30,580 nucleotides of DNA from a virus. Positions 4,021-11,330 of this stretch are shown here, one piece after another. Location: IMG/VR virus record IMGVR_UViG_3300036859_000557, positions 1 to 30,580 of that record; one strand, given 5' to 3'. Positions within the stretch are counted from its first letter, which is position 1; each line of letters opens with the position of its first letter. The notes below the pieces were generated by a model, which saw only the letters and a program-made list of their open reading frames with translations, was not told where the DNA came from and ran no database searches. Made by a program: the position numbers and the translations under genes.

Positions 4021-4385
4021 GCGAATACGGCGAGCCGTGGGCGTGGGCCATCTTCCATGAACTCGGGAACCTGCCGAGCATCACTGAGTGCCACGGCGAG
4101 GTCCTGGCCGATGTCTGCGACGAGGATTACGCCCGCCGCATCGTCGCCTGCGTCAACGCCTGTCTCGGTTTGAGCAACACGGTACTGGAGGCAATGGGCT
4201 TGGACGCCGCCGTGTTCTACGACAAGCAGCAGCGCGCTACCGTCGACAACCGCCTCACCAAGGCCGAGCGCCTGTTGCATCGATGGCTCTCGTATCCAAT
4301 AACTGAAGCTCAACGCGGCGGGTGTCTATGTTCTGCTTGTACTGTCAATCGAGATACGTCTGCCTTCCTGGAGACCGCCCGATGA
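4017..4385 (+). CDS. Conserved phage hypothetical (122 aa)
   Basis: The stretch DEDYARRIVACVNACLGLSN resembles a common phage protein of unknown function in which a RIVACVNAC segment follows a short beta-rich N-terminus (here ITECHGEVLADVCD). The C-terminal third carries CLCSAC, possibly a metal site. ATGA overlaps link it to both neighbours. Confidence 0.6.
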   Translation: MSEYGEPWAWAIFHELGNLPSITECHGEVLADVCDEDYARRIVACVNACLGLSNTVLEAMGLDAAVFYDKQQRATVDNRLTKAERLLHRWLSYPITEAQRGGCLCSACTVNRDTSAFLETAR

Positions 4386-4624
4386 CCAGTCGTGACCCGT
4401 TCTACAGCGACCGCTCGCGTTACGACTTCGACGAGGCTTACGTACAGAGTTGTCTCGAAACAATAGCGTATGACTCGCAGATGCTGATCGACGCTGAAGA
4501 GCGCGCGCGTAAGGCGCAACGCCGCCTGCCGGGCGACGCAGAGATCGATGGCGAGGTCGAGACACCACACCTAACTCCACATATGAAGGGCTGGCTGGAC
4601 GAGCAGGAGTACGGCCGTGGCTAG
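4382..4624 (+). CDS. Hypothetical protein (80 aa)
   Basis: I do not recognise this protein. It is hydrophilic and helical (FDEAYVQSCLETIAYDSQ, then DAEERARKAQRRLPG) and ends MKGWLDEQEYGRG. I chose ATG 4382 because it makes an ATGA overlap with the preceding stop. The frame is open further up to 4322, but that part lies inside the previous gene. It overlaps the next gene by eight bases. Confidence 0.55.
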   Translation: MTSRDPFYSDRSRYDFDEAYVQSCLETIAYDSQMLIDAEERARKAQRRLPGDAEIDGEVETPHLTPHMKGWLDEQEYGRG

Positions 4625-5039
4625 GCGTACAGACCTGCCAACGATGACCGCCTGCACATCCTGCGGCAAATGTTGCGGACCTGCTCATGCCAGCCCAGAG
4701 GAGGCCAAGCGTATCAAGCGCTTACTCAAAGACAGCGGCGAATCATGGCAGATACCGGCTGCTGACCATCCCTTGGATTGTGGGTTCTTGAGACTCGCCG
4801 GCGAAGGCCGTTTCGTGTGTGCGATTTATGAAGCGCGGCCCTGGATCTGTCGAGCCTTCGGTGTAGTGAAACAACTGCCCTGCGAGTTCTTTCCTGACTC
4901 AGCCGTCGTCGACTTCCCGGCAAGCTTGGCGGTTGGCATGGGACGGATGCCCAACTCGGGCCGGTTGTTGGGAGAGTGGTTTGAACCGGGCTATCACTTG
5001 CGTCTTGAAGCCGTGGGATTGCGAGCACGGAAGCTATGA
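4617..5039 (+). CDS. YkgJ-type cysteine-cluster protein (140 aa)
   Basis: The N-terminal CTSCGKCCGP (Cys 13, 16, 19, 20), a middle DCGFL (Cys 55) and FVCAIYEARPWICRAF (Cys 68, 78) match the YkgJ/UPF0153 family. Its cysteines are thought to hold zinc or an iron-sulfur cluster; the biochemical role is not settled. The central segment (SPEEAKRIKRLL...) is as expected for the family. It starts with GTG 4617 inside the end of the previous gene and stops in an ATGA overlap with the SWIM-RecT gene. Translation coupled to a recombination gene hints at a DNA-metabolism role, which is inference. Confidence 0.75.
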   Translation: MARRTDLPTMTACTSCGKCCGPAHASPEEAKRIKRLLKDSGESWQIPAADHPLDCGFLRLAGEGRFVCAIYEARPWICRAFGVVKQLPCEFFPDSAVVDFPASLAVGMGRMPNSGRLLGEWFEPGYHLRLEAVGLRARKL

Positions 5040-6262
5040 CCAACGCCGCCATGCGCCGCCGCGCTTTCCATGACGCCAGCAGGCCGCTGGCCGAGGCGCT
5101 GGGGCAAACGATGCGCGTTGAAGGCAATGCTTACCTCGTGCCGTCACGCACCACGTCCGGTCATTACTACGAGATCCGCATTGCCCTGGACGGCGTGCCG
5201 ATCTGCAACTGCCCGGCTGCGGGCAACAACATTGAATGCTGGCACGTCAAATACGTGCGGGAGGAAATACAGATGACGACAGAAACAACGCTAGTTCCTT
5301 ATGAGGTTCATCCGCCGAAATCGTTAGTACCCTCGCGCGACGTGCTAGCGTCGATCAAGGAAACGGCAGCGATGGCCTTAGCCGGTGCCGTAGCGCTACC
5401 AGAAGGCGTCAGGACGAAGGAACAGGCTGCCGCCTTAATGCTGTACGGCTGGGAGTTGGGCATCCCGCCCATGACATCGCTACAGAAGCTTTTCATCCTC
5501 AATGGACGGATAGCGATGTTCGCGGAAGTCATGGCCGGCCTCGCCATGAAAGCCGAGCCCGACTGCCGCCTGCTGGTCGAAGAACTAACGGACGAAGTCT
5601 GCACCATGCGGATTCAGCGGCCGTCGCGACACATCAGTGAGACCTATACGGTCGATTGGGACGAGATCAAAAAGGCTGGGCTGGCGCGCGGTAACAACCT
5701 CACGTACCCACGCGATCGTCTGCGCTACCACTGCACGAAGCGCATCCTGCGCATCTATGCACCGGACCTCATCAACAACATGGAAGGACCCGTCCTGGGT
5801 GGTGCTGGTGAGGAGATTTACGAGGGTGCGTACCTAGACAGCGAGACGGGCGAAATACACGAGCCAGCAGCCCCAGAGAGGCCCATGACGCCCATCACGG
5901 ACGAGCAGCGCAAGGCCATCGCCAAGGTTTGGAACCCACGGCATCACAACATCGAGAAGGTTAGGGCGGTCAACCCGCGCGCCTTCCCCCAGCCGGGGGC
6001 GGGTAGCAACGACACGAAGGTCCTTAGCTACGACGAGGCCAGCGCGGTGATCGCGCTGCTCAGCGAGAAGCCGGAGACGCCCGTTAGCGCGAGCGCGGGA
6101 GTGGTAGATGCGGGTCCGCCATTGACTACGTCTCCGGCTTGTCCGGCTTGCGACCACGAGTATGCCTTCAACGAGGACACGACGCTGCTGACGTGCCTGC
6201 TCTGCGGTGACGTACAGGACGCGCCGCCCAGCGAGCAGCCAGCGCAAGGGGCGCTAGTTTAG
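5036..6262 (+). CDS. RecT-like single-strand annealing protein with N-terminal SWIM domain and C-terminal zinc ribbon
   Basis: Residues ~25-75 carry a SWIM-type zinc motif (CNCPAAGNNIECWH, pattern CxCx(n)CxH). From residue ~80 the protein looks like phage RecT-type annealing proteins: GWELGIPPMTSLQKLFILNG, then MFAEVMAGLAMKAEPDC, DWDEIKKAGLARGNN and the Arg-rich RDRLRYHCTKRILRIYAPDL. A C-terminal zinc ribbon (CPACDHEY...LTCLLCG, ~361-383) follows a flexible linker. RecT-like proteins anneal complementary strands during phage recombination. The frame is continuous from ATG 5036. A second ATG at 5273 (residue 80), with GGGAGGA seven bases upstream, could yield the 329-aa RecT part alone. It begins in an ATGA overlap. 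Confidence 0.75.
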   Translation: MTNAAMRRRAFHDASRPLAEALGQTMRVEGNAYLVPSRTTSGHYYEIRIALDGVPICNCPAAGNNIECWHVKYVREEIQMTTETTLVPYEVHPPKSLVPSRDVLASIKETAAMALAGAVALPEGVRTKEQAAALMLYGWELGIPPMTSLQKLFILNGRIAMFAEVMAGLAMKAEPDCRLLVEELTDEVCTMRIQRPSRHISETYTVDWDEIKKAGLARGNNLTYPRDRLRYHCTKRILRIYAPDLINNMEGPVLGGAGEEIYEGAYLDSETGEIHEPAAPERPMTPITDEQRKAIAKVWNPRHHNIEKVRAVNPRAFPQPGAGSNDTKVLSYDEASAVIALLSEKPETPVSASAGVVDAGPPLTTSPACPACDHEYAFNEDTTLLTCLLCGDVQDAPPSEQPAQGALV

Positions 6263-6271
6263 GAGGGCACG

Positions 6272-6703
6272 ATGACGACACGACTCTATCAACGCGAGGT
6301 GACGGTTCAGTCCGTGGCAATTAACGCCCACGATTGTCCCTCGTGCGGCGTGATTTATGGGCTGGCTGACGACTACGAACAGCGCCGCCGGCAAGATGGC
6401 GCGACATGGTATTGCCCCAATGGACATTCGGTCAGTTACAACGGCACTCATGAAGCTGAATTGAAGAAGGCTCGCGCTGAAGTTGAAGCCGCCAAGGAGA
6501 GGTTGGAAGCGGAGCAAGGCTGGTCCGCCCGCCTATCGACCAGCCTTGAAAATGAACGCAAACAGCACGCCTCCACTAAGGGCCAGCTAACCAAGACGCG
6601 GAAGCGGATACAGGGCGGCGTCTGTCCCGATTGTAATCGTCACTTTGAGAACGTCGAACGCCACATGCAAACGAAGCACAAGGCGTTGATGCCTATGACC
6701 TAA
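6272..6703 (+). CDS. Double zinc-finger coiled-coil phage protein (143 aa)
   Basis: The order is a zinc-binding half (CPSCGVIYGL...WYCPNGHSVSY), a coiled coil (ELKKARAEVEAAKERLEAEQ onward) and a C-terminal C2H2-like finger (CPDCNRHFENVERHMQTKH). I recall this architecture as a frequent phage protein lying next to recombination or replication genes; its molecular role is not established. ATG 6272 has AGGAGGG (6262-6268) upstream, one of the best ribosome sites in the region. Confidence 0.75.
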   Translation: MTTRLYQREVTVQSVAINAHDCPSCGVIYGLADDYEQRRRQDGATWYCPNGHSVSYNGTHEAELKKARAEVEAAKERLEAEQGWSARLSTSLENERKQHASTKGQLTKTRKRIQGGVCPDCNRHFENVERHMQTKHKALMPMT

Positions 6704-6738
6704 CGAGCGCGGCGTGCGCAGGCGGAGAGGGCTTGCGC

Positions 6739-6841
6739 CGTCGCGTTGAGGGCTGAAGGTTGCAGGTGAGTTTGGCCTTGGCTTTCCGACGGGGGACTTA
6801 AAGGGATTTGTAGCCTGGGAATTTCAGCCCTCGACGCGATG
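6739..6841 (+). ncRNA. Long imperfect RNA hairpin (about 20-bp stem, 64-base loop)
   Basis: Bases 6739-6757 pair fully with 6823-6841: 17 Watson-Crick pairs and two G-U pairs, plus one more possible G-U at 6758/6822. The two mismatches are G-U only if the plus strand is transcribed, which suggests selection on plus-strand RNA. It fills most of the 165-base gap between the zinc-finger gene and the metallopeptidase gene and ends 27 bases before ATG 6869. It could be a structured leader, a processing site or a small RNA. No known riboswitch was recognised. Confidence 0.5.
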
Positions 6842-6868
6842 CAGAGGAAGGACAGAAAGGAACGCAGC

Positions 6869-7405
6869 ATGGTGACAGCAGAACGGGCGCGCAGCCTCAT
6901 TACGGGCGGTGATCCCGACGCTCCCGCTGGCGTGCCGGTGTTGGAGCAGTTCATAGGGCTGGACTTCTTGCCCGACAAGCGCCTGTCAGACATCGGCCAA
7001 CTCGTCGTTGCCAAGAAATTCATCCAACTAGACGGAGCCGTGACCATCGACTTTCTTTGGAAGGCAAAGGGTGGCACTTCTGGAGGCAATCTAGTCCTCG
7101 GTAAGTGCATCAAGAACAGTGGCCTGGCACGTCACTACAGCAACTATACCGATTACACGGTCTGGATTGCTGCCGATCACTCGCGCTCTTACGGCTTCAA
7201 TCGCTGGCAGCTTGAAGCGCTGATATTCCATGAGCTCCTTCACATCGATTACGAAGAGCCAGAGGAAGAGGGAGCCGCGGCGGTCAAGGGCACTAAGGGG
7301 CATGATGCTGAGCTTTTCTACTCCGAAATCGAGGAATACGGTTTGTGGAGACGCAGCCTTCAACGGCTATCCGAAGTGGTACAGCCCGCCCTACCACTGG
7401 ACTGA
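6869..7405 (+). CDS. Putative phage metallopeptidase (178 aa)
   Basis: HELLHID (residues 121-127) is a zinc-protease HExxH motif. It is followed by GHDAELFYSEIEEYGLW, where the His (145) and Asp could complete the metal site, as in the putative phage metallopeptidase family. The N-terminal half has a YTVWIAADHSRSYGF strand region before the active helix. I chose ATG 6869 because AAAGGA lies upstream; the alternative ATG 6839 sits inside the hairpin arm. Its substrate is unknown; antirestriction-type metalloproteins are one comparison, not shown here. Confidence 0.7.
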   Translation: MVTAERARSLITGGDPDAPAGVPVLEQFIGLDFLPDKRLSDIGQLVVAKKFIQLDGAVTIDFLWKAKGGTSGGNLVLGKCIKNSGLARHYSNYTDYTVWIAADHSRSYGFNRWQLEALIFHELLHIDYEEPEEEGAAAVKGTKGHDAELFYSEIEEYGLWRRSLQRLSEVVQPALPLD

Positions 7406-7434
7406 ACGAAGACAGAAAGAGGCTCCCCCGCCCA

Positions 7435-7836
7435 ATGACCCTAAGACGCGCAGCCCTCAAGAGAACGCCCTTCGGTGAGAAGGCGCGCGCCCGGACCAAT
7501 AGCGAGGCCCAGCAGATGCGCGTCCTTGAGGACCTCATGCGTCCGTTGGGACTGGACTGGTGGCACAACACCAACACCGGCAAAGAGCACTTCTTCCGTG
7601 CAGGCTGGCCGGACTACGTGATCTTCGGCGTCAACTGGCACGCCTTCCTCGAGCTCAAGGCCTCTAACGCAGAGACAGGCAAGCGCGGGCGCTTGAGTCG
7701 TGAACAGATCCAGTGGCAGGCAATCATCGAGGCCGGTGGCGGCGAGTGGGTAACGTTCTGTCTGCCTGACGACATGCGGCAGTTGTGCGCTTGGCTATCG
7801 ACGCGTACGGGCAAGCAGATCAGGAGCGTCGTATGA
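7435..7836 (+). CDS. VRR-NUC-type nuclease (133 aa)
   Basis: The motifs GWPDYVIF (Asp 60), FLELKA (Glu 73, Lys 75) and LSREQIQWQ (Gln) are the PD-(D/E)xK core of virus-type replication-repair nucleases, which cut branched or flapped DNA. Length is normal for a stand-alone phage VRR-NUC. The N-terminus is basic (TLRRAALKRTPFGEKARAR). I chose ATG 7435, preceded by GAAAGAGG; the open frame further upstream lies in the previous gene. It overlaps a 19-codon ORF (7833-7892) by four bases. Likely role: recombination or replication fork processing with the RecT-like protein. Confidence 0.75.
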   Translation: MTLRRAALKRTPFGEKARARTNSEAQQMRVLEDLMRPLGLDWWHNTNTGKEHFFRAGWPDYVIFGVNWHAFLELKASNAETGKRGRLSREQIQWQAIIEAGGGEWVTFCLPDDMRQLCAWLSTRTGKQIRSVV

Positions 7837-7892
7837 GCGTGCTGCGCCTGGAGGCAGTGCGGGCAGATGGGCGCGCGAGGGTGGGGCTGTGA
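7833..7892 (+). CDS. Tiny ORF between nuclease and methyltransferase fragment (19 aa)
   Basis: MSVLRLEAVRADGRARVGL is linked by ATGA and GTGA overlaps to both neighbours. It may be only a coupling relic left by deletion of the front of the methyltransferase gene. Confidence 0.25.
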   Translation: MSVLRLEAVRADGRARVGL

Positions 7893-8119
7893 GTCAACCA
7901 GAGAAGAACGGCCATCCATGTCCCAAGCCACTGAAGGCGTGGCGACGTTTACTCAACAACATCTCTCAGCCTGAGCAGACTGTCCTCGATCCCTTCATGG
8001 GCTCTGGCACAACTCTACGTACAGCGAAGGACTTAGGGCGCAAGGCTATCGGCATCGAGATCGAGGAACGCTACTGCGAGATCGCGGCGAAGCGTCTGGC
8101 GCAGGACGTACTGCTATGA
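7889..8119 (+). pseudogene. DNA methyltransferase C-terminal fragment (76 aa)
   Basis: The protein matches the C-terminal part of amino-group DNA methyltransferases: HPCPKPLKAWRRLL, then the S-adenosylmethionine motif LDPFMGSGTTLRTAKDLGRK and IGIEIEERYCEIAAKRL. The catalytic DPPY-type motif, which lies upstream in this order of motifs, is absent, and I do not see it in the 50 bases before. The start GTG 7889 is joined to the tiny upstream ORF by GTGA. Most likely a deletion remnant, although a stand-alone SAM-binding domain cannot be excluded. It opens the cassette run leading to the transporter and DpdA-like genes. Confidence 0.65.
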
Positions 8120-8391
8120 CGCTCGCCTGCTTCGTCTCCGGCTGCCCGGAGCGCGTCGTCATGAGCCGCAGTTGGCGAGAGTCCGTCACGCTACACGCCT
8201 GTGCCTGGCATCGGGAGTTTCTTCCGCGACTACAGCCGCCGGGCAGGGAAGCCTACGAGATTTGTCCCGACTGCAAGAAGGACTACGGTGTTTACTTCCG
8301 CCAGTATCCGCGAGTCCTGGAGGTCTACTGCCAGGGCTGCACGCGCGCGCTGGTGCCAGTTATGGGCCACGCACAGGCAGTCTTGCTATGA
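8116..8391 (+). CDS. Small zinc-binding protein (91 aa)
   Basis: CPDCKKDYG and, 18 residues on, VYCQGCTRA give a CxxC...CxxC zinc ribbon in the C-terminal half. The N-terminal half has CFVSGCPERV and HACAWHREF, possibly a second site. Function unknown. It lies between the methyltransferase fragment and the transporter, with ATGA overlaps on both sides. Its end (QAVLL stop) and start share the junction sequence repeated three times in this cluster. Confidence 0.6.
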   Translation: MTLACFVSGCPERVVMSRSWRESVTLHACAWHREFLPRLQPPGREAYEICPDCKKDYGVYFRQYPRVLEVYCQGCTRALVPVMGHAQAVLL

Positions 8392-8924
8392 CCAGGCCCG
8401 TCTGCCTCGTCCCGTTTGTAGCTTATATTGGGACGGTCTACGGCGCTAACTGGGCGCTCAAGGAATTCGGCTTCATCCACATCGGCTTCGGCCTTACTGC
8501 TCCTGCTGGCGTTCTATTCGCTGGGCTCGCTTTCACATTCCGAGACCTGACACACGAAGCGCTGGGTCGTTGGTGGTGCATTGTTGCCATCCTCGTTGGT
8601 GCTGCCTTGTCCTACGTCCTAGCCGACGTGGGGCGGATCGCCGTTGCTTCGGCAATTGCCTTCAGTCTCTCCGAGTTAGCAGATTTGGTGGTATATGAGC
8701 CGCTGCGCCGCCGCCATTGGTTAGGCGCAGTGGCTATCTCTAATTTTGTCGGCCTAATAGTTGACTCTGCCTTATTTCTCTGGTTGGCCTTGGGCTCTCT
8801 GAACTTCATTGAGGGCCAGATTGTCGGCAAGGCATACATGACGGTGTTGGCAATAGCAGCGCTATGGGCATGGAGGAAGTGTGCAGTTCTATCTCGGAAC
8901 GCATCATCCGTCCTGGCTGAGTGA
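8388..8924 (+). CDS. VUT/YhhQ-type membrane transporter, probable 7-deazapurine precursor importer (178 aa)
   Basis: This is a multi-span membrane protein with VUT family features: YIGTVYGANWALKEFGF, LTAPAGVLFAGLAFTFRDLT (the conserved FRDL segment), then several hydrophobic spans and FSLSELADLVVYEPLRRRHW. Members such as YhhQ import queuosine precursors (preQ0/preQ1). I chose ATG 8388, which forms an ATGA overlap with the upstream gene; the open frame before it belongs to that gene. It overlaps the DpdA-like gene by 44 bases, so the two are probably coupled. Import of a modified base for DNA is inferred from this pairing. Confidence 0.75.
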   Translation: MTRPVCLVPFVAYIGTVYGANWALKEFGFIHIGFGLTAPAGVLFAGLAFTFRDLTHEALGRWWCIVAILVGAALSYVLADVGRIAVASAIAFSLSELADLVVYEPLRRRHWLGAVAISNFVGLIVDSALFLWLALGSLNFIEGQIVGKAYMTVLAIAALWAWRKCAVLSRNASSVLAE

Positions 8925-9642
8925 AGTTGACGTGCCGCTTTTTGTTTCACGCCGCCGGTTGCAAGAGCGTCGAACCCTGCCGCGCGCTAGAGCACTGTGG
9001 GCTTTGGACTCCGGGGGATTCTCTGAATTGTTTATGTACGGTGAGTGGCGGCTATCACCTACTGAATACGTGATCCAAGTGCGCCGCTACCGAGAAGACA
9101 TCGGCGCCCTTGCTTGGGCGGCGCCGCAGGATTGGATGTGCGAACCGTGGCTAGTTCAGAAGACAGGACTATCAGTGGAGGAGCATCAGCAGCGGACAGT
9201 GTCCAACTTCCTTGACTTGAGAGGGAAGGCACCTGATCTGCCCATTATTCCCGTACTTCAGGGTTGGAGTCCAGATAGCTACTTAGAGTGCTGGCAGATG
9301 TACGACAAAGCAGGCGTCAATTTAAGCACTGCACCGTTAGTGGGATTAGGTAGTATGTGCCGGCGTCAGAACACGGCGGAAGCCACGAGGATCATTGCCT
9401 CACTTCTGCGTAAAGCGCCGCTCAATCTACATGCTTTCGGTTTCAAACTGAGTGGTCTAAGGCGTACAGCTCATCGCTTAGTATCAGCCGACTCTATGGC
9501 ATGGAGTTATCGAGCCCGGCGCTCTGCTCCCCTTGTCGGCTGCACCCACCGCAGTTGCGCCAATTGCCAACGTTGGGCATTGGCTTGGCGTGAAAGCGCC
9601 TTACTTGCGATTCTTTCTCCTAAGCAGGAGGTCTTGTTGTGA
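8881..9642 (+). CDS. DpdA/TGT-like transglycosylase for 7-deazapurine DNA modification (253 aa)
   Basis: This matches the short phage/actinobacterial DpdA-like family related to tRNA-guanine transglycosylase. Motifs are WALDSGGFSEL (43-47, the TGT DSGGF signature), WAAPQDWMCEPW (~79-90), PVLQGW (124-129), PLVGLGSMCRR, HAFGFKL and SADSMAWSYRAR, where the Asp is a candidate nucleophile. Cys 221, 226 and 229 (CTHRSCANC) would hold zinc. DpdA exchanges guanine in DNA for preQ0-type bases, protecting phage DNA from restriction. GTG 8881 has GGAGG four to five bases upstream, inside the transporter gene. Synthesis genes for the base are absent from the window, which fits scavenging. Confidence 0.75.
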   Translation: MQFYLGTHHPSWLSEVDVPLFVSRRRLQERRTLPRARALWALDSGGFSELFMYGEWRLSPTEYVIQVRRYREDIGALAWAAPQDWMCEPWLVQKTGLSVEEHQQRTVSNFLDLRGKAPDLPIIPVLQGWSPDSYLECWQMYDKAGVNLSTAPLVGLGSMCRRQNTAEATRIIASLLRKAPLNLHAFGFKLSGLRRTAHRLVSADSMAWSYRARRSAPLVGCTHRSCANCQRWALAWRESALLAILSPKQEVLL

Positions 9643-9731
9643 CTCGTAGGCCCGTCTGCCTTGACACGTTCTCCTGCGCCAGCGGTACGGCTTACATCGG
9701 GGCGTGGGCGCTGAATGCGGTGCAGCCGTGA
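9639..9731 (+). pseudogene. Thirty-codon gene remnant after the DpdA-like gene
   Basis: It starts with GTG in a GTGA overlap and an AGGAGGT site. The first residues (TRRPVCLDTFSCASGTA) resemble the first SAM motif of cytosine-5 DNA methyltransferases (RPVxLDLFSCAGGAA) and also resemble the start of the transporter gene (MTRPVCL...AYIG...WAL). It stops after 30 residues, and a 15-codon ORF (9728-9775) follows in overlap. A decayed methyltransferase or duplicated gene start is likelier than a functional peptide. Confidence 0.4.
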
Positions 9732-9786
9732 GCGCCTACATCTTCCGCGAGCTGACGCCGCGCGAGGCCGAGTAAAGGAGCAGCCA

Positions 9787-10089
9787 ATGGACGCGGCCCC
9801 CGCCGCTGCTGAAAATGACTCAATCGAGACACTCAAGGCCGACATCCTCGCTGATTCCGAGGGGCAAGCCGCAGCGCAACGTGCTGTCGATGCAAAGGCC
9901 GAGGAGTTCCTTGTCGCCTGCGTTAAGTTCGCCAAGTTGTGGCAATTGTCGGGTGATCCTTTCCTCGGTATCCGCAACCTGGCCCAGGCGATACAGAACA
10001 TCAATGAGACAAGCAAACTAGCAGACAAGGAGATCAAGGCTCGACGTGAACCACTAGCGCCAAGAGGACAACGGGGTGGGGTTGAATAA
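9787..10089 (+). CDS. Hypothetical helical protein (100 aa)
   Basis: I do not recognise this protein. It is alanine- and acid-rich at the N-terminus, with a central helix (RAVDAKAEEFLVACVKFAKL) and a basic C-terminus (KEIKARREPLAPRGQRGG). AAAGGAG lies six bases before ATG 9787, a clear start. It directly precedes the helicase-like gene (two-base gap), so it may be an accessory factor for replication; that is positional inference only. Confidence 0.6.
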   Translation: MDAAPAAAENDSIETLKADILADSEGQAAAQRAVDAKAEEFLVACVKFAKLWQLSGDPFLGIRNLAQAIQNINETSKLADKEIKARREPLAPRGQRGGVE

Positions 10090-10091
10090 CG

Positions 10092-11330
10092 GTGCCCCTG
10101 CCTGCGCCCAACTCGACCTTTTCCGATGACCTCTATCGTTTCCATTGGCCGGAGTTGGGTGTTGAATGCTTACTCGAACGCTTCTCGGAGAGGAAGGATG
10201 ACATTGCCGCCGAGCTCACTGTCAACGTCGATGACCCTCTGCGGGGCGGGCGCCTCTACAGCGGCCGGCTGCTGCTCATTGGACCCAACTCCCGGCGCGA
10301 CGTGCAGCGTAATCTTGAGGAGCGCATCGACATTGATTGGGCTGGCGTCCTTGAGCAATTGTGTTTGCTTGCGCGAGATCGTTATCGCAAAGGCGAGCCG
10401 CCAGTGGACCTCAGTCAGGTCGAATATCAGGAGCAAGCTCATTTCCTATTGGCCCCGTTCGTGGTTCGAAAGGGAATCACGATCCCATATGGCGACGGCG
10501 GCACGGCTAAGAGCCTGCTGACCTTACATTGGTGCGTGAGGTTGGCGTTGGAGGGGATCAAGAGCCTGTATTTGGATTGGGAAGATGATGCTGCGACCCA
10601 TGCCGAGCGCTTGTACGCCATCTGTGCGGGCATGGAGATCGACGTACCTCAAGAGATGATCTTCTACCAGCACCGCAGCGTCCCTCTTGCTAGTTCAGTG
10701 CGTGAAGTCCGGCGCTTTATTGCCGAGAAAGGCGTCGAGCATAGCGTGGTAGATTCGGTGGGTATGGCGGCGGGAGACCCGAACGATCATGGGTTGATGA
10801 TTGAAGCAGTGCGTGCAGCTCGCTCGCTCGATGTCGCTGCTACGCTGGTACACCATCTGCCGAAGGACGCGCGCGATAAGACTAAGCCTTTCGGATCGGT
10901 CTATGCATCGAATGAAGCGCGCATAACCTGGCTGGTAGAGAAGGCACAGGAGGAGGAGACTGACGAACTCGCCATTGCATTGACCAATCACAAGTACAAC
11001 CGCGGCCGGCTCCAGGGTAAGAGAGCCTACCGCCTACGTTTCATCAACGACAGAGACACGTTGCTGTCCGTCTCGTTCGATGAGACAGAGGTGGGTCAGG
11101 TGTCGGCGTTCAGGTCAAAGCTACCTCAACGGCGCCTGATAGCGGACGCGCTTAAGAGCAATGGACCTTTGAGCGTGGGTCATATTCAGTCTTGCCTTGA
11201 AATCGAAGGGGTAGTTGTAACTGCGGATCACGTTCGCGCGGTTCTCAGTAGGTATAGGGATTTGTTCGCCAAGAGGGGCGATACCTGGATTCTCTTAAGT
11301 GACAGGGTGGAACCGCAACATGTTTCGTGA
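10092..11330 (+). CDS. RecA-fold replicative ATPase (RepA/AAA_25-like helicase) with C-terminal winged helix
   Basis: The Walker A loop is PYGDGGTAKSLL (~132-143). It is followed by the typical LYLDWEDDAATH (~159-170) and the Walker B region HSVVDSVGMAAGDP (~217-230), then a VHHLPKD sensor stretch and GSVYASNEAR. This is the order seen in RepA-type hexameric helicases and related phage AAA_25 proteins that unwind DNA at replication origins. The last ~70 residues (RRLIADALKSNGPLSVGHIQ, then an HVRAVLSRY helix) look like a winged helix. GTG 10092 follows the previous stop by two bases. It faces the minus-strand wHTH gene, with a hairpin between. Confidence 0.75.
   Translation: MPLPAPNSTFSDDLYRFHWPELGVECLLERFSERKDDIAAELTVNVDDPLRGGRLYSGRLLLIGPNSRRDVQRNLEERIDIDWAGVLEQLCLLARDRYRKGEPPVDLSQVEYQEQAHFLLAPFVVRKGITIPYGDGGTAKSLLTLHWCVRLALEGIKSLYLDWEDDAATHAERLYAICAGMEIDVPQEMIFYQHRSVPLASSVREVRRFIAEKGVEHSVVDSVGMAAGDPNDHGLMIEAVRAARSLDVAATLVHHLPKDARDKTKPFGSVYASNEARITWLVEKAQEEETDELAIALTNHKYNRGRLQGKRAYRLRFINDRDTLLSVSFDETEVGQVSAFRSKLPQRRLIADALKSNGPLSVGHIQSCLEIEGVVVTADHVRAVLSRYRDLFAKRGDTWILLSDRVEPQHVS

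Follow-up and report, generated by a model that had tools for sequence, protein, structure and literature searches.

Phages that carry the base-exchange enzyme DpdA without the genes for synthesis of its 7-deazaguanine base formed the largest group of DpdA phages in 2019, with 76 members, and the source of their base is unexplained. The question returns at a locus of the IMG/VR virus record IMGVR_UViG_3300036859_000557, where the gene of a compact membrane transporter runs into the gene of a short DpdA: could such a phage import the base and insert it into its own DNA? The whole 30,580-base record, hereafter called the window, was analyzed; it is classed as 'linear' and may be a fragment. An earlier note on this DNA had read the two genes as a VUT/YhhQ-type transporter and a short DpdA/TGT-like enzyme with 44 bases in common, and had proposed that they form a two-gene scavenging module.

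The layout of the pair was found as described in that note. The transporter gene occupies positions 8388-8924 of the plus strand (ATG start, 178 aa) and the enzyme gene positions 8881-9642 of the same strand (GTG start, 253 aa), the 44 bases at 8881-8924 being coding in both. This overlap suggests translational coupling. A Shine-Dalgarno-like GGAGG lies inside the transporter gene at 8872-8876 (plus strand), four bases 5' of the GTG, and homologues start near the same residue. On the upstream side, the stop codon of a 91-aa CxxC/CxxC protein (8116-8391, plus strand) overlaps the transporter start by four bases (ATGA at 8388-8391), and the CxxC protein also shares four bases with a methyltransferase fragment before it. 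By these overlaps the genes appear to form a single translation-coupled run. The CxxC protein is without a family match and without a relative among the fetched loci, and is at most a candidate member of the module.

The methyltransferase fragment (window 7889-8119, 76 aa) is the C-terminal part of an N6/N4 DNA methyltransferase, corresponding to profile positions 156-221 of 221. No N-terminal half was recognized nearby, which suggests a remnant or a split gene. Elsewhere in the window, positions 1668-2941 hold a long open reading frame with an Ala-rich (AAR/AAS)n repeat, in which the open frames are long on both strands and include Pro-rich and Ala-rich alternatives.

Profile searches placed both proteins in the families that the earlier note had named. 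The transporter, of the VUT/COG1738 (DUF165) family, matched Pfam Vut_1 (PF02592) with 45.2 bits and an E-value of 1.7e-11, above the cut-off of 27.2, and PHROG 4899 with an E-value of 4.7e-37. Kyte-Doolittle windows gave several hydrophobic segments, as in a polytopic membrane protein, and the alignment of relatives identified R52-D53, E96, D99, D126, Q144 and K148 as family residues. As a queuosine-precursor transporter the protein scored too low for either NCBIfam equivalog (TIGR00697, 34.6 bits vs a cut-off of 50.95; PRK11212, 30.1 vs 252), and a sequence search of solved structures gave nothing useful. A preQ1 riboswitch lies upstream of some QPTR/YhhQ genes and is not required; the Rfam search gave no match to one in window positions 7000-11000 or in 17 bacterial loci.

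The enzyme matched Pfam PF23859 with 317.2 bits and an E-value of 1.1e-94 (cut-off 27) and PHROG 1279, 'queuine tRNA-ribosyltransferase', with an E-value of 1.3e-97, while it missed the cut-off of NCBIfam NF041059, the bacterial dpd-island DpdA (13.9 vs 200 bits). Its AlphaFold2 model, built on an alignment of 61 relatives (A2), is a TGT-type (beta/alpha)8 barrel with a mean pLDDT of 95.5. The best PDB match found by Foldseek was the DNA preQ0 insertase DpdA (7ui4, E-value 8.9e-7), and many TGTs, from bacteria and eukaryotes, came next. At 253 aa the protein is short against the about 360-390 aa of the tRNA TGTs among the PDB matches.

The barrel retains the aspartates that the earlier reading had called for. 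D43, D84, E88, Q127, G155, G157, H184, G187 and D204 are invariant in 61/61 relatives, and S44 and C87 nearly so (59/61 each). By motif order, D43, D84, Q127, G155, G157 and D204 would comprise the active-site Asp pair and residues that bind the base. D43 opens the DSGGF motif (9007-9021, plus strand), the counterpart of the TGT DSGGF; D84, C87 and E88 lie in the QDWMCEP motif, part of the QDWMCEPW noted before; and D204 (9490-9492, plus strand), in SADSMAW, is the candidate nucleophile by motif order. From motif order and family knowledge, we take D43 to be the TGT general base and D204 the nucleophile. A DpdA with a lost active site was rejected as an interpretation, as the key positions are retained when compared with the 61 relatives. 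The Cys cluster is also present as a putative zinc cluster, C221-x-H223-x-x-C226-x-x-C229 (9541-9567, plus strand), kept in most transporter-linked DpdAs and lost in many others: C229 occurs in 34/61 relatives overall and in 16/17 transporter-linked members. By this distribution the cluster is only a subfamily trait.

The pair proved to be conserved far beyond the window phage; two of the three refuting outcomes named in the earlier note, on structure and on synteny, thus did not occur. Scanning IMG/VR with one conserved VUT motif yielded 80 loci, or 60 once near-copies were taken out; the alignment behind the motif includes some members from DpdA loci, which makes for a mild bias. In 57 of the 60 non-redundant loci a TGT-like gene lies at most 600 bases from the VUT gene, on the same strand in 56. 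The same pairing was found in named phages by a single-sequence transporter search (PEAT2, Bhagsy, Aoka, Pam5, RHph_N3_2, phiLM21 and ReqiPine5), and the Mycobacterium phages Bhagsy, GreaseLightnin and Majeke carry the transporter with its partner. Taken singly, the TGT-like families are rare, with 400, 104 and 24 of the 50,697 phage records, 0.8% at the most. Three loci had no partner in their 5-kb flanks (L138, L116 and L101). Of these, L138 lies at the edge of its contig; L116, with none of the three partner families across its 59-kb record, is a real exception. Seen from the transporter side, the pairing of VUT and a TGT-like gene in phages is thus near-obligate.

From the enzyme side the picture differs: VUT lies within 5 kb in only 11 of 77 IMG/VR loci with a PF23859 DpdA. 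As most of these DpdAs occur without VUT, the enzyme does not depend on the transporter. The VUT-linked DpdAs cluster among the closer relatives, with 10 of 34 at an identity of at least 43% and 1 of 43 below it (Fisher p about 9e-4, indicative only, since related contigs are not independent).

The partners of VUT belong to three families, two of them without a Pfam match: PF23859, as in the window, a PHROG 887-like family, and PHROG 15826, which is of unknown function in PHROGs. The three partner labels are intermixed in a tree of 104 transporters, in which most branches are weakly supported; the rows with a TGT-like partner require at least 17 label changes. Between L122 and L086 the transporters show 91% identity (149/163), yet their partners are of PHROG 15826 and PHROG 887 type, respectively; on these figures this is apparently a recent partner swap. 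Similarly, the 80% identical transporters of L160 and L085 accompany a PHROG 887-type and a PF23859 enzyme. Such a mix of partners would be expected if transporters and enzymes had been re-paired repeatedly for one joint function.

How far the three families are related was approached by profile and structure comparison. With hhalign, the PHROG 887-like and PHROG 15826 families link with 91% probability, and the comparison of PF23859 with these two was not significant. A second AlphaFold2 model, of PHROG 15826 and with an input alignment of IMG/VR loci only, is a TIM barrel with a pLDDT of 92; its top matches are other TIM barrels, and DpdA 7ui4 follows at rank 20 (E-value 9.9e-4). Members of this family (L088 4479-5123 and L146 5779-6390) share conserved motifs (D, Q, GG, D) that follow the order of TGT, and some mycobacteriophage records label members 'DpdA-like'. 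We call PHROG 15826 TGT-like because of the motif order, the hhalign link and the record annotation; on that footing it is a likely TGT. For all three enzyme families, the sequence search of solved structures gave nothing useful. In Bhagsy, the annotated start of the PHROG 15826 gene may be 36 bases too late; an upstream GTG would give a 44-base overlap with the transporter gene, as in the window.

The earlier note had seen no folE, queD, queE or queC, and this was reproduced: neither the QueC, QueD and QueE profiles nor a FolE query sequence gave a match in the window, and the same probes recover the genes of L101. For the genome beyond this possible fragment, the absence of synthesis genes is judged from relatives whose records are long or complete, and which likewise lack them. 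Among 49 VUT-bearing phage records (23-131 kb, five complete named phages included), QueC and QueD scored over the cut-off in one, L101, where positions 4273-8838 form a complete queC-VUT-queD-queE-(phosphoribosyltransferase::folE)-DpdA cluster with a DpdA of PHROG 887. The idea that VUT replaces the synthesis genes specifically in VUT-carrying DpdA phages gained no support, as no contrast was seen: PF23859 phages without a nearby VUT are also without QueC/QueD (1/40 has them). DpdA phages without a nearby transporter presumably use a base made by the host, or are unmodified where the host makes none.

Bacterial homologues of the compact VUT, scanned with alignment A7, have queC within 4 kb in 28 of 80 loci. 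The gene adjoins queC in Afipia, Microvirga and Acetobacteraceae, it lies near queCDE in Streptomyces, Saccharothrix and Nocardiopsis, and the phage-type pair is present in three bacterial loci. From the linkage with queC, queD and queE in L101 and in these bacteria, it follows that the compact VUT subfamily belongs to 7-deazaguanine metabolism. At the same time, the synthesis-gene neighbours in L101 and the actinobacteria are a caution that VUT may have roles besides import. In three Streptomyces loci (L185, L186 and L191) the compact VUT is near queC, queD and queE in genomes without a TGT match; preQ0 could be made there without tRNA queuosine, and VUT could export preQ0 or have a role in DNA or secondary metabolism.

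Taken together, the reading that we consider probable is that the two genes form a salvage module through which phage DNA acquires a 7-deazaguanine. The compact VUT would enter the inner membrane of the host during infection and import a 7-deazaguanine base, most likely preQ0, otherwise preQ1 or queuine. The translationally coupled DpdA would then swap guanine in the phage DNA for the imported base through a covalent Asp-DNA intermediate, and the modified DNA would be protected against host nucleases. The genomic part of the earlier scavenging proposal is well supported. Which base is moved and in which direction, and that DNA and not RNA receives it, we infer from family knowledge; protection of the DNA is an inference as well. 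Against the module speaks VUT beside full synthesis genes in L101 and Streptomyces, where import looks redundant, as do the low equivalog scores of the window VUT, the many PF23859 DpdAs without VUT and the very small amounts of modified base in DpdA-only phages. As a wider and tentative proposal, which we place a little short of probable, phages may have assembled such a minimal 'import and insert' system repeatedly, from one compact transporter subfamily and at least three interchangeable TGT-like families. They would thereby modify their DNA with an environmental nutrient even where the host makes none, and their protection would hinge on release of that nutrient by neighbouring microbes.

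The enzyme could instead act on RNA, in which case an imported queuosine precursor would modify host or phage-relevant tRNA (or rRNA or mRNA) and tune translation. The fold is common to the tRNA TGTs, which come close behind DpdA in the Foldseek list, and phages with preQ0 genes but without DpdA are thought to raise tRNA Q (PMC6884629). However, PF23859 is a DpdA family, the best PDB match is a DNA insertase, the window protein is far shorter than a tRNA TGT, and the Q pathway is wholly absent from Mycobacterium hosts (PMC6884629), so RNA is an unlikely acceptor. Slightly less likely again is that VUT carries, and the TGT-like enzyme inserts, a purine other than preQ0, preQ1 or queuine. In favour of this, the window VUT falls under the equivalog cut-offs, and COG1738 is heterogeneous, with no universally conserved residue and with substrates that vary between preQ0/preQ1 and queuine (PMC5372724, PMC11130926). 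Nevertheless, the compact subfamily sits in queC/queD/queE clusters of L101, Streptomyces, Saccharothrix, Nocardiopsis and Microvirga and beside queC in Afipia, which points to 7-deazaguanines.

We regard it as very unlikely that the pair builds no DNA mark and serves counter-defence or export, removing or diverting the 7-deazaguanines of host defences such as dpd islands or deazaguanylation by the QueC-like Cap9/QatC. Type IV CBASS and Qat do use QueC-like proteins (PMC13329287), and the Streptomyces VUTs next to complete synthesis genes without a TGT would suit export, but the pair matches no PADLOC defence profile, TGT chemistry swaps bases in nucleic acid, and E. coli YhhQ is by genetics an importer (PMC5372724). 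Scarcely credible, finally, is a pair of chance neighbours or a decaying remnant without joint function, even though PF23859 genes mostly stand without VUT and a methyltransferase fragment lies two genes upstream: the active sites are intact, and the TGT-like neighbour recurs in the VUT-selected loci, almost always on the same strand, with partners exchanged. Chance adjacency was rejected on this linkage, and conservation over hundreds of relatives rules it out.

In the proposed salvage module, the conserved transporter next to the enzyme would give DpdA-only phages a way to obtain the base. If the reading is true, a shared micronutrient governs the protection of phage DNA, DpdA-only phages grown without the base wrongly appear unmodified, and PHROG 4899 and PHROG 15826, the latter listed as 'unknown function', gain functions. 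Bhagsy, GreaseLightnin and Majeke grow on M. smegmatis, which lacks the queuosine pathway (PMC6884629); if their DNA held a 7-deazaguanine, it would need to have been taken up from the medium.

The nearest known enzymes are the singleton phage DpdAs (PF23859/PHROG 1279), found in group 3 of Hutinet 2019 with Mycobacterium phage Orion and Salmonella phage 7-11, and also in MED16. Like the window enzyme, which shows about 53-63% identity with its closest members from mycobacteriophages and IMG/VR, they are TGT-fold DpdAs without preQ0 synthesis genes; unlike them, the window dpdA is overlapped by a transporter gene. In MED16 (PMC8306585) and 7-11 (PMC6884629) dADG can occur despite the missing synthesis genes, while Orion, whose host is without the pathway, carried no dADG (PMC6884629). 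The DpdA-only phages so far seen to be modified contain very little modified base, 0.02-0.13% of G (PMC6884629, PMC8306585). The DpdA of bacterial dpd islands (7ui4) is the best structural match, yet it is about 15% identical over the structural alignment and has 413 aa against 253. No other dpd genes were recognized among the window neighbours scanned; YhhQ occurs in about 9% of bacterial dpd islands (PMC11888242).

Among transporters, E. coli YhhQ/QPTR (PF02592, COG1738, TC 2.A.88) shares the Pfam family of the window VUT and is genetically needed for preQ0 salvage (PMC5372724). The compact phage form differs from it in its 160-190 aa, as compared with a 221-position E. coli-type profile, and in scoring under the two NCBIfam equivalog cut-offs. 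According to Hutinet 2019, YhhQ occurs in some phages without correlating with any group, and DpdA-only phages might rely on uptake (PMC6884629). Salvage by phages had also been proposed for Pantoea phage Vid5 in 2018 (PMC6266253) and for Enterobacter phage EC151 (PMC8310023), both with synthesis genes. The near-obligate transporter/TGT-like pair and the exchange of partners seem to be new, whereas the idea of phage salvage itself is older; we found no earlier report of the pair or the exchange in the literature consulted, and priority is not certain.

The preQ0/G+ clusters with a transporter (Vid5, EC151, Seuratvirus/CAjan) resemble the window in joining a VUT-family transporter to a DpdA/TGT. 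Vid5 has three of the four synthesis genes and EC151 all four, in contrast to the window and nearly all compact-VUT phages, which have none. The window fragment likewise differs from group 2 of Hutinet 2019, defined by preQ0 synthesis plus DpdA, in having none of folE, queD, queE and queC. The bacterial QPTR-bTGT fusions (PMC11130926) also join a transporter and a TGT physically, but these are cellular fusions with a tRNA TGT, unlike the phage pair with its DpdA.
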